Below the pieces are notes generated by a model. That model did no database searches and had not been told where the DNA came from. It saw nothing but the letters and a program-made list of their open reading frames with translations. The position numbers and the translations under genes are program-made. From Spirochaetaceae bacterium (GTDB lineage Bacteria; Spirochaetota; Spirochaetia; DSM-27196; SLAA01): DNA of 60,458 nt. Each line of letters begins with the position of its first letter. The stretch's first letter is position 1. The stretch is taken from positions 1-60,458 of the forward strand of contig REEM01000110.1 in NCBI GenBank assembly GCA_007695055.1, given 5' to 3'. This document shows positions 43,400 to 48,273 of the stretch, one piece after another.

Positions 43400-43672
43400 A
43401 TGAACGTTACCATTGACCGGTTGGGGAGAATTGTTGTGCCTAAGCAGGTTCGCGACAGGTTTCATCTTGTTGCGGGGACTTCCCTTGAGCTTGAGGTGGA
43501 GTCTGATGGAATTCGAATTCGGCCGCTTCACCAGGAGCCAGCGCTGCAGCGAAAGCAGGGTGTGCTGATTCATCACGGGCCGGAAACGGTGAGCCTGGAC
43601 ATGGCGGAGTTTGTTAATCGTGACCGGGCAAACCGGGACACGGATCTCGTCGCCGAAGGGCCCGCAGAGTGA
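43400..43672 (+). CDS. AbrB/SpoVT-type antitoxin (VapB-like)
   Basis: MNVTIDRLGRIVVPKQVRDRFHLVAGTSLELEVESDGIRIRPL. Confidence 0.88.
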   Translation: MNVTIDRLGRIVVPKQVRDRFHLVAGTSLELEVESDGIRIRPLHQEPALQRKQGVLIHHGPETVSLDMAEFVNRDRANRDTDLVAEGPAE

Positions 43673-44100
43673 CGGTGCTCTTTGACACATCGGTACTGGT
43701 TCCTGCGCTCGTAGACCAGCTTGCCAACCATCCGGCCTGTTTCTCCGCGTTTGTAGTCGCTACCTCAGACGGAAATCGCGGCGTGTGCTCGACCCACGCC
43801 TTAGCTGAGTGCTACTCCGTGTTGACCTCGTTGCCGGTGCCTCGCCGAATCACCGCGCCGGAGGCGCGGCGGCTTGTTGAGGAAAGCATTCTGCAGCGCT
43901 TAACCGTTGTCGCCCTGAAGACGGAGGACTACCGCGAAGCAATGCGGACTCTTGCTGAGGCTGGCCTCACCGGCGGAGTCATCTACGACGCACTTCACGT
44001 TGCCGCAGCCCGCAAAGAGGGATGCAGTCGCATTCTGACCTACAACCTTCGGCACTTCCAGGCACTCTGCCCACCGGAGATCACTGTCACGGCCCCGTGA
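43669..44100 (+). CDS. PIN-domain toxin (VapC-like)
   Basis: TVLFDTSVLVPALVDQ, ALAECYSVLTSLP, GVIYDALHVAAARKEGCSRILTYN; overlaps antitoxin by 4 nt. Confidence 0.88.
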   Translation: MTVLFDTSVLVPALVDQLANHPACFSAFVVATSDGNRGVCSTHALAECYSVLTSLPVPRRITAPEARRLVEESILQRLTVVALKTEDYREAMRTLAEAGLTGGVIYDALHVAAARKEGCSRILTYNLRHFQALCPPEITVTAP

Positions 44101-44378
44101 AGACCCACGAATTGCGTCGTACCCTGTTCTCGTGAAACATCGATATCTTCGCGCTCGAGAAGTGATGCGACCCGATCTGGAGTCACCTGAACTGACCCGG
44201 GGCGCTTAGAGTGAACCAGCGGGAACTCAACCCGCCGGGTCTCAATCCTCATTGGGCTTCCGGCGAGCTCGTGCTCAATTGCCTGGGTGATAAATTCCTT
44301 GAGCGTCGTACCCCGCAAAGATGAAACCACCTTGGCTTTGCGGAACAACGCATCTGGCAAATCAATTGTCGTACGCAT
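44040..44378 (-). CDS. Orphan VapB-type antitoxin, C-terminus running into antisense of the neighbouring toxin
   Basis: MRTTIDLPDALFRKAKVVSSLRGTTLKEFITQAIEHEL; no toxin gene follows. Confidence 0.7.
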   Translation of the reverse strand: MRTTIDLPDALFRKAKVVSSLRGTTLKEFITQAIEHELAGSPMRIETRRVEFPLVHSKRPGSVQVTPDRVASLLEREDIDVSREQGTTQFVGLHGAVTVISGGQSAWKCRRL

Positions 44379-44404
44379 ATTCGCATGTTCACACATTCGC
44401 ACCA

Positions 44405-44544
44405 CTAATTCAAGATTTTGGCTCCTGAACGAGCAGAAAAGCCCGCAAGAAGCGCATCCAGCCATGAGTCGTCTACCTCAAGCTTGCCGATAGATGCCTT
44501 GATCGCCACCACAACACTATGTGGGTATCAAGGAGAAGGTTCAT
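44405..44544 (-). pseudogene. PIN-domain toxin relic with internal deletion
   Basis: MNLLLDTHIVLWW followed, in another frame, by VAIKASIGKLEVDDSWLDALLAGF; ATG overlaps antitoxin TGA. Confidence 0.75.
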
Positions 44545-44780
44545 TGTTCGCCCGCTCCAAAGGCGCTGGCGATATCTTCAGGGAGTGTATCAAAGTCATC
44601 TGCAATTCGAATTTTTCCACGGAGCCTTCCCGGCTGACGGACACCGGTTGCCCGGTTATAGGGAACCAGTACGGCAACTGCTTTTCCCGCTTTGCTGATG
44701 ATGACCTCTTCGCCGCTGACCGCACGTTCAACAAGGGCAGACAACTGTGCCTTTGCTTCAGTGATTGTGTTTACTACCAT
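44541..44780 (-). CDS. Phd/YefM-type antitoxin
   Basis: MVVNTITEAKAQLSALVERAVSGEEVIISKAGKAVAVLVPY. Confidence 0.88.
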   Translation of the reverse strand: MVVNTITEAKAQLSALVERAVSGEEVIISKAGKAVAVLVPYNRATGVRQPGRLRGKIRIADDFDTLPEDIASAFGAGEQ

Positions 44781-44811
44781 GGCGATATCTCCGGTTGTTT
44801 CAGATAGTACC

Positions 44812-44827
44812 AGACCAGATCTGGTCT
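44812..44827. promoter_or_regulatory. AGACCAGATCTGGTCT perfect 16-bp palindrome upstream of the Phd antitoxin
   Basis: Perfect dyad in the intergenic promoter region. Confidence 0.65.
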
Positions 44828-44956
44828 ATACCACTTTTATGATACGCTGATTCTCTTCTCCGATCAAGGACACATCAGATGAGTGATTCAAAGGGCTCAC
44901 ACGCCCGGGAGTAACTCGGGCACGTAAGCCTTCAATCTGCGTGGCTTTTGCCGCTC

Positions 44957-45571
44957 TTAGAACGGCGTGCGGACCAGCCGATCAACTGCTGCGTCTCGCT
45001 CTGCCGCCGGTATGAGTTTCGGTTGGGTGACCAGCAAGGTAGCAACTCCGTGTACTTTTGCCCAGAAGCCCAGGAGAAACTCGTTCTCACTCAGGTGCCG
45101 GTAGGCCGCCTCTTTGTGGAGGGGTAGGGCGGTTCTCTTGAACAGCTCAAAACCGCTGTGCTCGCGAGACTCGTGACCCCCCAGCCCGCCCATGAGTGTA
45201 TACAGCGGGTTGTCGTCCGAGGGAAGTACAGAGAACAGTGGCAAGATCTCAGGGTTGTGCACAAAGAACTGAACGTAGGCAATCCCAAGGCGCATGAGCA
45301 TTTCGCGTTGGTCTATGGGTCGATGTTTGTCTCGGGGGCCGTGCACCGCCCGGTTGAGCGATTCCTCGAATGCAGTACTGGTGTGTTCAAGAATAGCGCG
45401 CAAGAGTTCGTCTTTGCTGCGGAAGTGGCGGTAAGCAGCAGCGTGACTTACGCCAAGCTCGCGCGAGAGGGCCCGTAAAGAGAAGGACTTAACTCCGTCC
45501 CTGTTGAGCATTCGAAGACCACCGCCAATGAGTTCACCTCGCAGGTTTCCGTGATGGTACTGCTCATTCAT
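44957..45571 (-). CDS. TetR/AcrR-family regulator
   Basis: N-terminal HTH FSLRALSRELGVSHAAAYRHFRSKDELLRAIL. Confidence 0.9.
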   Translation of the reverse strand: MNEQYHHGNLRGELIGGGLRMLNRDGVKSFSLRALSRELGVSHAAAYRHFRSKDELLRAILEHTSTAFEESLNRAVHGPRDKHRPIDQREMLMRLGIAYVQFFVHNPEILPLFSVLPSDDNPLYTLMGGLGGHESREHSGFELFKRTALPLHKEAAYRHLSENEFLLGFWAKVHGVATLLVTQPKLIPAAERDAAVDRLVRTPF

Positions 45572-45590
45572 GAGAAAACTATAGCATTCT

Positions 45591-45609
45591 ATGTTGACAA
45601 TGTAAACAT
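45591..45609. promoter_or_regulatory. TetR operator candidate O1: ATGTTGACAATGTAAACAT
   Basis: Imperfect 9-1-9 palindrome overlapping both divergent -35 elements; repeated at 45628. Confidence 0.75.
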
Positions 45610-45627
45610 CCCGGGGTACAGTGTGTT

Positions 45628-45646
45628 ATGTTACCAGTGTAAACAT
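45628..45646. promoter_or_regulatory. TetR operator candidate O2: ATGTTACCAGTGTAAACAT
   Basis: Same ATGTT-N5-TGTAAACAT pattern 37 bp downstream of O1. Confidence 0.7.
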
Positions 45647-45676
45647 TGCTGGCGAAAACCGGGTAGGAGGAGTTCC

Positions 45677-46246
45677 ATGAAAAAAATTGTGGTAGTGTGC
45701 GACTCGCGCGAGCCCCAAGCGCGTGCCGTTACTCACCTGACTGAGCAGGTATGCTCACAGTACGACTGGGCTATAGAAAGGATACATGCCGATGCAGTGC
45801 TGCTTTCCGACTGTATTGGCTGCTTTGGTTGCTGGGTGAAGACGCCGGGCCTCTGCGTGCTCACCAGGGATCAGGGCAATGATATGGCCCGCACCGTTTT
45901 ATCCGGTACTCACCTGGTCTTTGTCTCACGGGTTACCTGGGGTGGCTACAGTGCAAGCATAAAGAAATGCGCCGACCGCATGCTGCCGTTGCTGCATCCG
46001 GACTTTCGCAAGGTCAACGGTCAGATGCATCACATCATGCGCTACCCCCATATGCCACGAATGCTCGCGGTGGGCTACGGCGCGGTCTCGCCGTCCGAGG
46101 TACAGTGCTTCCGTACCTACACCGCCGCGCATGCCCGCAACATGGACACAGAGCTGGGCCAGCGGGCCTTTATCTGGCCTGAGCAACACCAAGACCCTGA
46201 GCCAGCTGCGTACACCAGGTGGCTGAGTGAGGAGGTGTGCGCATGA
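45677..46246 (+). CDS. Flavodoxin-fold / NADPH-dependent FMN reductase-like protein
   Basis: MKKIVVVCDSREPQARAVTHLTEQV, DCIGCFGCWVKTPGLC; SD GGAGGAG. Confidence 0.7.
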   Translation: MKKIVVVCDSREPQARAVTHLTEQVCSQYDWAIERIHADAVLLSDCIGCFGCWVKTPGLCVLTRDQGNDMARTVLSGTHLVFVSRVTWGGYSASIKKCADRMLPLLHPDFRKVNGQMHHIMRYPHMPRMLAVGYGAVSPSEVQCFRTYTAAHARNMDTELGQRAFIWPEQHQDPEPAAYTRWLSEEVCA

Positions 46247-46929
46247 GGGTTGTAGCAATAAACGGTAGCCCGCGGGGTGCGGCTTCCTCTTCGCACGAGG
46301 TTGTTCGCATTGTACAGTCCATGGTGCCGCCAGGTGTCCATGCTCAGTGGCAGACGGTTGAGCACATCCAGCGCCTGACCGAGGCCGATCTCGAGCTCAT
46401 GAGTACGGCAGATGTACTGCTCATAGCGTTCCCGCTCTATATTGACGGTGTTCCGGCCTCCACCTTGGGCTTCCTGGAGCGCTACAAGGCAGCGCGAATG
46501 CGGGCCGCCTGTGCCCATGGGGCACAGCGGGTCTTTGCCGTGTCCAACTGCGGCTTCTACGAGGGAGCCCAAAACCGCTGGGCAGTTGAGATAATGGCCA
46601 ACTACTGTGCTGATCTAGGCCTGCGGTGGTGCGGCGGAGTAGGTATAGGCACCGGTGAAATGATTCGTGGCCTTGCGCAGGTACCACTGAAGGCGCGGGT
46701 GCGACGCCCAGTCACCGCCGCGCTTCTCCGTTTAGCCGAGGCAATACAAGAGACACACGGGGCACTGGATCAAGATATCTATACCCAACACGCCTTACCG
46801 TGGAGAATCTACCAGGTACTTGGCCAACATGGATGGCGCAGACAACTCCGCCGCAACGGCCTGCATGCCCGTGAGATCGGCGCCCAACCGCTCACTAAAT
46901 CATTCCTTTCACTAAATCATTCCTTGTAG
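46243..46929 (+). CDS. NAD(P)H-dependent FMN reductase-like protein
   Basis: MRVVAINGSPRGAASSS; overlaps the upstream gene stop by 4 nt. Confidence 0.75.
   Translation: MRVVAINGSPRGAASSSHEVVRIVQSMVPPGVHAQWQTVEHIQRLTEADLELMSTADVLLIAFPLYIDGVPASTLGFLERYKAARMRAACAHGAQRVFAVSNCGFYEGAQNRWAVEIMANYCADLGLRWCGGVGIGTGEMIRGLAQVPLKARVRRPVTAALLRLAEAIQETHGALDQDIYTQHALPWRIYQVLGQHGWRRQLRRNGLHAREIGAQPLTKSFLSLNHSL
46892..46925. repeat. 17-bp perfect tandem duplication TCACTAAATCATTCCTT x2 at the 3' end of the reductase gene
   Basis: Direct reading; 46892-46908 and 46909-46925. Confidence 0.95.
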
Positions 46930-46961
46930 GCGAAGAACGAAGTCAGTGCTACACTGAATGC

Positions 46962-47198
46962 GTGAGAAAACGTAATGTTACTATCAGTCTAGATGCCGAT
47001 GTCGCGCGTTGGGCTCGCATAAAGGCGGCCGAGAACGACACAAGTGTTTCTCGTATGCTGGCTGATCAGCTTGAGCAGCAGATGGCAAAGGACACTGAAT
47101 ATGAGCAGGCACAAGCGCGGTTCTTGAACAAAGCAGGACGTCGCCTCCGAAAAGACAGCACAGCATACCCACAACGAGATACCTTGTACGAGCGGTAA
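46962..47198 (+). CDS. RHH-type antitoxin
   Basis: MRKRNVTISLDADVARWARIKAAENDTSVSRMLADQLEQQ; GTG start. Confidence 0.8.
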   Translation: MRKRNVTISLDADVARWARIKAAENDTSVSRMLADQLEQQMAKDTEYEQAQARFLNKAGRRLRKDSTAYPQRDTLYER

Positions 47199-47205
47199 GC
47201 AGTTT

Positions 47206-47637
47206 GTGGACACAAACGTGCTCGTGTACAGTCGCGACACCACCGAAGTAGACAAGCACGCCGTCGCCTCGGACATCATGCGGCGTCTGTGGGAGGACCG
47301 CACCGGCGTTATCAGCACGCAGGTGTGCAGTGAGTTCTATGTCACGGTAACGCGAAAGCTTGATCCCGGACTGACGCCCGAAGAAGCATGGGAAGATCTA
47401 GAAGCGCTGCTGGCATGGGATCCGGTCCCGGTGAACGCAAGTTGTATGCGAGTCGCCAGGCATATCGAACTGCGATACGGCCTGTCCTGGTGGGATAGCC
47501 TGATCATTGCGGCCTGCAGCCAGGCCGGTTGTATCGAAATCCTCTCAGAAGACTTGAACCCGGGTCAGGAATATCTGGGTATTCGGGTAACGAATCCGTT
47601 CAATGCCGGTGGGTCAACCCTGGAAACGGAAACGTAA
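47206..47637 (+). CDS. PIN-domain toxin
   Basis: VDTNVLVYSRDTTEVDKHAVASDIMRRLWEDRTGVISTQVCSEFYVTVTRK...GLSWWDSLIIAACSQAGCIEILSEDL. Confidence 0.85.
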   Translation: MDTNVLVYSRDTTEVDKHAVASDIMRRLWEDRTGVISTQVCSEFYVTVTRKLDPGLTPEEAWEDLEALLAWDPVPVNASCMRVARHIELRYGLSWWDSLIIAACSQAGCIEILSEDLNPGQEYLGIRVTNPFNAGGSTLETET

Positions 47638-47668
47638 CGCCAGCTGCTGTTCCCCCGCCCGGGCGACC

Positions 47669-48067
47669 CTATGGAGGCCCATCTAACCACGCTGCGTGTG
47701 AGTAGTTGTCACGGATAGTGCGGTTCCGGGTGCACAACTCCGCACTGTAGGCGAGTGCGTGTGACACAATAAGGCGGTCAAATGGGTCCCGTGTCCATCT
47801 AAGGTGGTTTGCAATCTCGGCAGCCCGTAGCCACCCTGCGGTTTCTATCTGCACGCCAAGGTCACGTTCGAGAACTCCCAGAACTCCGGCCGGATCTTCT
47901 TTAACTCTGCCGATTTCGCACAGGAACGACATCTCCAGCCGCACCATGGGAGAGATGAAGAGCTCACTCTCATCCAGCAGTTGCTGGGTGGAGCCGGGAA
48001 TGCGGTACGGCTCTGCGAACAACCACAGTGCAACGTGTGTGTCTAGAAACACCACTATGGCTTCCAC
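47669..48067 (-). CDS. PIN-domain toxin
   Basis: VVFLDTHVALWLFAEPYRIP, WTRDPFDRLIVSHALAY. Confidence 0.87.
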   Translation of the reverse strand: MEAIVVFLDTHVALWLFAEPYRIPGSTQQLLDESELFISPMVRLEMSFLCEIGRVKEDPAGVLGVLERDLGVQIETAGWLRAAEIANHLRWTRDPFDRLIVSHALAYSAELCTRNRTIRDNYSHAAWLDGPP

Positions 48068-48273
48068 TCCGACGGACTGAAGCTGTCTAGGTTATCTCCG
48101 TTAATTAGCACGCCGTCCCGCGATGGAAGCTCATGTACCTTGAGCCGCCGGGTGTGAGGCCGTAGCGCAACCGTTCCGTGGCGCCGCTCTACCAGCACCG
48201 GCTCGCCGGACTCAATGCACCGGTCAAGAGTGCTAAAGAGATTGCGGCGCAGTTCGCTTGCCTTAATCTGCAT
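48055..48273 (-). CDS. Phd-type antitoxin
   Basis: MQIKASELRRNLFSTLDRCIESGEPVLVERRHGTVALRP; overlaps toxin start. Confidence 0.82.
   Translation of the reverse strand: MQIKASELRRNLFSTLDRCIESGEPVLVERRHGTVALRPHTRRLKVHELPSRDGVLINGDNLDSFSPSEWKP

Follow-up and report, generated by a model that had tools for sequence, protein, structure and literature searches.

Across a 107-bp stretch of spirochaetal DNA, a TetR-family gene faces two flavodoxin-fold genes, f1 and f2, in the opposite orientation. The locus raises the question of whether a single repressor could shut off both sides from this stretch, and whether the two near-identical palindromic sites within it, O1 and O2, are operators of that repressor. 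The stretch is very probably a real, strongly conserved genetic switch in which the TetR silences both directions. The main features of the window, i.e., the whole 60,458-nucleotide stretch analysed, are as follows.

44957-45571, minus strand: tetR, a TetR-family repressor of 204 aa with TetR_N and a probable WHG-type (TetR_C_33) C-terminal domain (Pfam, orthologue alignment)
45578-45606, minus strand: leftward promoter for tetR, TTTACA-N17-TATAGT with TG upstream; -35 at 45606 to 45601, -10 at 45583 to 45578
45591-45609, no strand: putative operator O1, ATGTTGACAATGTAAACAT, with both -35 hexamers within; kept in all ten cassettes
45594-45622, plus strand: rightward promoter for f1-f2, TTGACA-N17-TACAGT; -35 at 45594-45599, -10 at 45617-45622
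45628-45646, no strand: putative operator O2, ATGTTACCAGTGTAAACAT, around +1 of the rightward promoter
45664-45671, plus strand: Shine-Dalgarno-like sequence of f1, TAGGAGGA, read from the window sequence
45677-46246, plus strand: f1, an ISF-like, flavodoxin-fold protein of 189 aa with a CX2CX2CX7C motif (alignment, fold model)
46243-46929, plus strand: f2, a flavodoxin-fold protein of 228 aa, with a 4-nt overlap with the end of f1

Divergent promoters and paired putative operators

O1 and O2 lie 37 bp apart from centre to centre (18 bp from edge to edge), at the places and the distance given in an earlier note on this DNA. With up to three mismatches allowed, their joint pattern is matched four times in the 60-kb window (two sites on two strands), against 0.09 matches expected in dinucleotide shuffles. 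Throughout the 3.43-Mb assembly, O1 and O2 are the only sites with fewer than three mismatches to the shared pattern, which speaks against a regulon extending beyond this locus. The control region has no Rfam match to a structured RNA.

A promoter scan of 44800-47100 returned only two matches at 10 of 12 positions, the rightward TTGACA/TACAGT and the leftward TTTACA/TATAGT, confirming the two N17 promoters that had been proposed; the rightward -10 agrees with the consensus at four of six positions. Both -35 hexamers fall inside O1, also as proposed, but the overlap claimed for them was wrong by 1 bp: they stand back to back with 1 bp between them. If six nucleotides are allowed between the leftward -10 and +1, the first transcribed base is the A of the start codon of tetR (45571), and the geometry agrees with the leftward +1 that had been proposed.

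The same divergent arrangement of tetR and f1-f2 occurs in the window and in nine more spirochaetal genomes (G026, G367, SZUA-377, G118, G159, G167, G141, G131, and G046), whose proteins share 27-52% (TetR), 25-47% (f1), and 28-53% (f2) identity with those of the window. All ten cassettes have two operators, at a spacing of 35-38 bp in eight cassettes and of 27 bp in the other two. The rightward -35 lies inside O1 in every cassette (TTGACA, or TTGACG in G367), and the leftward one, TTTACA or TTTACG, does so in nine, with a weaker TAGACA in G046. In columns anchored on O1, almost the whole of O1 is conserved together with the T, A, and T of the rightward -10 at N17 (10, 9, and 9 of 10, respectively), while the left flank is an A-rich stretch that includes a -10. 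The pattern TA...T at N17 to the right of O1 is present in nine cassettes, a spacing of 18 being the better one in G167. On the left, all ten have a -10 hexamer at N16-18, preceded by TGn in nine. Both the rightward and the leftward -10 scores exceed those of all 5000 flank shuffles. O2 is confined to the rightward -10/+1 region in every cassette and overlaps the -10 in G367 and G046; the likely f1 start of G026 is found at the end of O2.

These cassettes give strong comparative support for O1 coinciding with both of the divergent -35 regions, in line with the earlier suggestion that one TetR dimer could block both promoters. Spacings of 27 and 35-38 bp hint at one-turn steps, and helical phasing of O1 and O2 was considered; given spacings of 22, 23, 31, 33, and 34 bp in other phyla, no fixed phase is proposed. 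A specific dimer-dimer contact is likewise not supported by the sequences, as the O1-O2 spacing varies (27 and 35-38 bp in spirochaetes, 22-34 bp elsewhere).

The geometry also bears on a different reading, in which the TetR partly switches between mutually exclusive promoters or acts as a roadblock, with O1 occupancy favouring one promoter and O2 only blocking elongation. Promoters that share O1 back to back probably cannot bind two RNA polymerases together, and O2 is located at or just after +1. However, O1 covers both -35 hexamers and leaves no room for an activator that helps either polymerase, and O2 overlaps the -10 instead in two genomes (G367 and G046). This reading is considered improbable, and repression of both sides by the TetR is preferred.

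The tetR ATG is 19-25 nt from the start of O1 in all ten cassettes. This interval contains the leftward -10 and leaves at most about 11 nt between the -10 and the ATG, and no Shine-Dalgarno sequence is seen before tetR in the ten orthologues. Because O1 and the -10 are so near the ATG and a Shine-Dalgarno sequence is lacking in all ten, the tetR mRNA is predicted to have no leader or almost none, a feature that appears conserved. In contrast, a purine-rich, Shine-Dalgarno-like sequence precedes f1 in most of the other cassettes as well. A leaderless TetR-family mRNA has been demonstrated for acuR (PMC3017554), and a passage of the same paper cites Tn1721 tetR as leaderless.

When 395 genomes of the class were scanned with the pattern, additional matches turned up outside the cassettes (L075, L077-L081, L083-L086, and L088). 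These are loci without f1-f2, with the exception of L088, whose genome has f1-f2 on a separate contig. The spirochaete G256 has the same O1 between a TetR gene and the gene of an unrelated flavodoxin-domain protein.

Proposed operator code and recognition helix in other phyla

A motif was learned de novo from the upstream regions (200 bp) of 31 remote TetR genes, all belonging to other phyla (Chloroflexota, Actinobacteria, Proteobacteria, Bdellovibrio-like, Myxococcota, and Gemmatimonadetes). It is a 19-bp palindrome with the consensus ATGTTGCCAgTGGTAACAT and a likelihood score of 330, compared to 59-60 with shuffled input. Applied to the 60-kb window, this matrix ranks O1 first (29.3 bits) and O2 second (28.6 bits), the next site reaching 7.5 bits. 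The assignment of O1 and O2 to the adjacent TetR is strongly supported by this ranking and by the ten diverged cassettes that keep the arrangement.

In the reverse test, a matrix built from spirochaetal sites scored above 8 bits, a cut chosen after the scores were seen, in the upstream sequence of 24 out of 27 other TetRs carrying the recognition helix SHxxxYRHF (or SN...) vs 7 of 29 without it. The association between helix and operator has a Fisher p of 9e-7, which is indicative only, since related loci are not independent and shared ancestry is uncorrected. Among the seven exceptions, most combine SKTAPYRHF or a close variant of it with a variant operator.

Other helices are accompanied by other sites. 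TetRs with SKTAPYRHF or SKNAPYRHF (L016, L018, L020, and L022) have a variant operator resembling ATGTTGACnnTGCCnACAT, while those with SEPAIYRHF or a similar helix (L028, L036, L031, and L035) have a different palindrome upstream, TTAGTGATCGATAACTAA-like, which is apparently a second operator code.

These comparisons weigh on the proposal that the operators belong to some other regulator of the same palindrome, next to which this TetR lies by accident. Some of the conservation could stem from the promoters alone, as a half-site overlaps the common -35 hexamer. The motif, however, is palindromic over 19 bp, tracks the TetR subfamily across phyla and differing targets, and goes with the recognition helix; another regulator is thus very unlikely. 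A chance origin of the promoter and palindrome matches has next to no probability: short consensus matches are common and TACAGT is a mere 4/6 match, but it is already contradicted by four pattern matches where 0.09 are expected and by conservation in ten diverged cassettes, whose -10 scores on both sides were reached by none of 5000 shuffles.

The gene divergent from tetR differs among loci and includes (i) an MFS transporter in Nocardioides, MFS genes being found at five loci, (ii) a Flavodoxin_2 quinone-reductase-like gene at three proteobacterial or Bacteriovorax loci (L050, L060, and L064), (iii) a metallo-beta-lactamase-fold protein in Myxococcota (L062 and L066), and (iv) an alpha/beta hydrolase in Herpetosiphon (L039). 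Such divergent genes are the usual targets of local TetR repressors. At the Myxococcota loci L062, L063, L066, and L059, the divergent gene probably starts at a codon made up of the last AT of the second operator and a following G (AACATG or CACATG), so that operator and start codon overlap.

There is an even chance that these loci represent a transferable module, in which WHG-type TetRs with SHxxxYRHF use one 19-bp code, ATGTTGMCAnnGKnAACAT, in about six phyla. Many half-sites would carry a -35, one dimer could lock two divergent promoters, and the module would be kept while its targets (flavoprotein pairs, quinone reductases, MFS exporters, and hydrolases) are exchanged. If the code is true, the operators and likely targets of many unstudied TetRs become predictable from a short helix signature. 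This cross-phylum code is the part that specialists may not know; no published account of it with its TetR was found in the open-licence literature, judged partly by title and abstract. PA3973 was considered as a match to the code and is ruled out by its different motif, SAAGRNMTGAACG.

Repressor, flavoproteins, and proposed mechanism

The window TetR matches TetR_N (PF00440) with 43.1 bits (cut-off 24) and TetR_C_33 (WHG) weakly, with 19.4 bits against a Pfam cut-off of 26.8. All 13 aligned TetRs match TetR_C_33 at E <= 0.01, and W170, H174, and G175 are invariant among them.

No Pfam model was matched by the window f1 alone; FMN_red was matched by 8 of the 18 aligned f1 members. C46, C49, C52, and C60 are invariant in all 18. 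The spacing of these cysteines, CX2CX2CX7C, falls within the compact CX2CX2CX(5-7)C motif of the iron-sulfur flavoproteins (ISFs; PMC3164229). AlphaFold2 models f1 and f2 with a flavodoxin-type fold (pLDDT of 94 and 90, respectively). Their best fold matches in the PDB include the SsuE FMN reductase, azoreductases, and quinone reductases, as well as KefF and WrbA for f2; sequence searches of solved structures with f1 and f2 gave nothing useful. f1 is predicted to carry 4Fe-4S and FMN and f2 a flavin, and the probable role of the pair is to reduce a compound that is toxic or redox-active.

At its 3′ end, f2 contains a 17-bp tandem duplication at 46893-46926 (CACTAAATCATTCCTTT / CACTAAATCATTCCTTG), a length not divisible by three, and its C-terminus is unlike that of its relatives, many of which finish near ARPY. 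The f1-f2 pair is also present in further spirochaetes (L118 2582-3705, L119, L125, L130, and others), where the fetched stretch lacks this TetR, so the enzymes probably act together under different control.

The cassette is situated amid several toxin-antitoxin-like genes (43400-48273). These are AbrB-like/PIN-like genes at 43400-44100 (by eye), Phd/YefM at 44541-44780 (Pfam run), a VapBC-like pair at 46962-47637 (Pfam run on 46962-47195 and 47206-47634), and, on the minus strand at 47669-48273, another PIN/Phd-like pair (by eye).

It is highly probable that a local, autoregulated TetR of the WHG/TetR_C_33 type represses its own gene and f1-f2 via O1 and O2 and releases them on binding a small ligand, with a tetR mRNA that starts at the AUG and an f1-f2 operon for redox chemistry or detoxification. 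Without inducer, O1 would be occupied by a TetR dimer that covers both -35 elements and represses tetR and f1-f2, while a second dimer on O2, over the rightward start region, would add to the repression of f1-f2. A small ligand in the WHG domain would release the dimers, and the flavoproteins and some more repressor would be made. Beginning at its AUG, the tetR mRNA may keep repressor synthesis low.

Relative to the leftward promoter, O2 extends from about -58 to -76, i.e., upstream of the predicted tetR start, whereas relative to the rightward one it sits around +1, so O2 should mainly affect f1-f2. The earlier idea that it tunes the flavoprotein operon only would fit this position and, as far as sequence can tell, all ten cassettes. 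A quinone or electrophile as inducer is a guess that stems from the flavodoxin-fold enzymes. The locus also adds a spirochaetal case of a repressor gene whose predicted leaderless mRNA is conserved, and screening could reveal the inducer of its small redox operon.

Comparison with known systems

The tet region of Tn10/Tn1721 has a TetR gene divergent from its target, two palindromic operators in overlapping promoters, and autoregulation. Like this TetR-tetO1/O2-tetA system, the window has two operators within overlapping divergent promoters, an arrangement kept in ten cassettes, and autoregulation is to be expected. Unlike it, the target is a flavoprotein pair rather than an efflux pump, and the TetR has another C-terminal domain. 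The window operator is unrelated to tetO (TCTATCATTGATAGG; PMC9736018), and its target genes encode flavodoxin-fold proteins in place of tetA.

The acuR-acuI-dddL system of Rhodobacter sphaeroides resembles the window in its leaderless repressor mRNA, predicted here, and in the operator within the promoter of that mRNA (PMC3017554). It differs in being a single operon that includes the repressor gene, with no divergent pair, and in its operator and function.

With the ISF family, f1 shares the compact cysteine motif (PMC3164229) and, in its model, the flavodoxin-type fold. No entry of that name is among its 50 best fold matches, which are led by the SsuE FMN reductase and azoreductases, with 8-14% identity to f1. 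The overall layout is classical, having been known since the tetracycline-resistance genes, and this control region is a further case of it.
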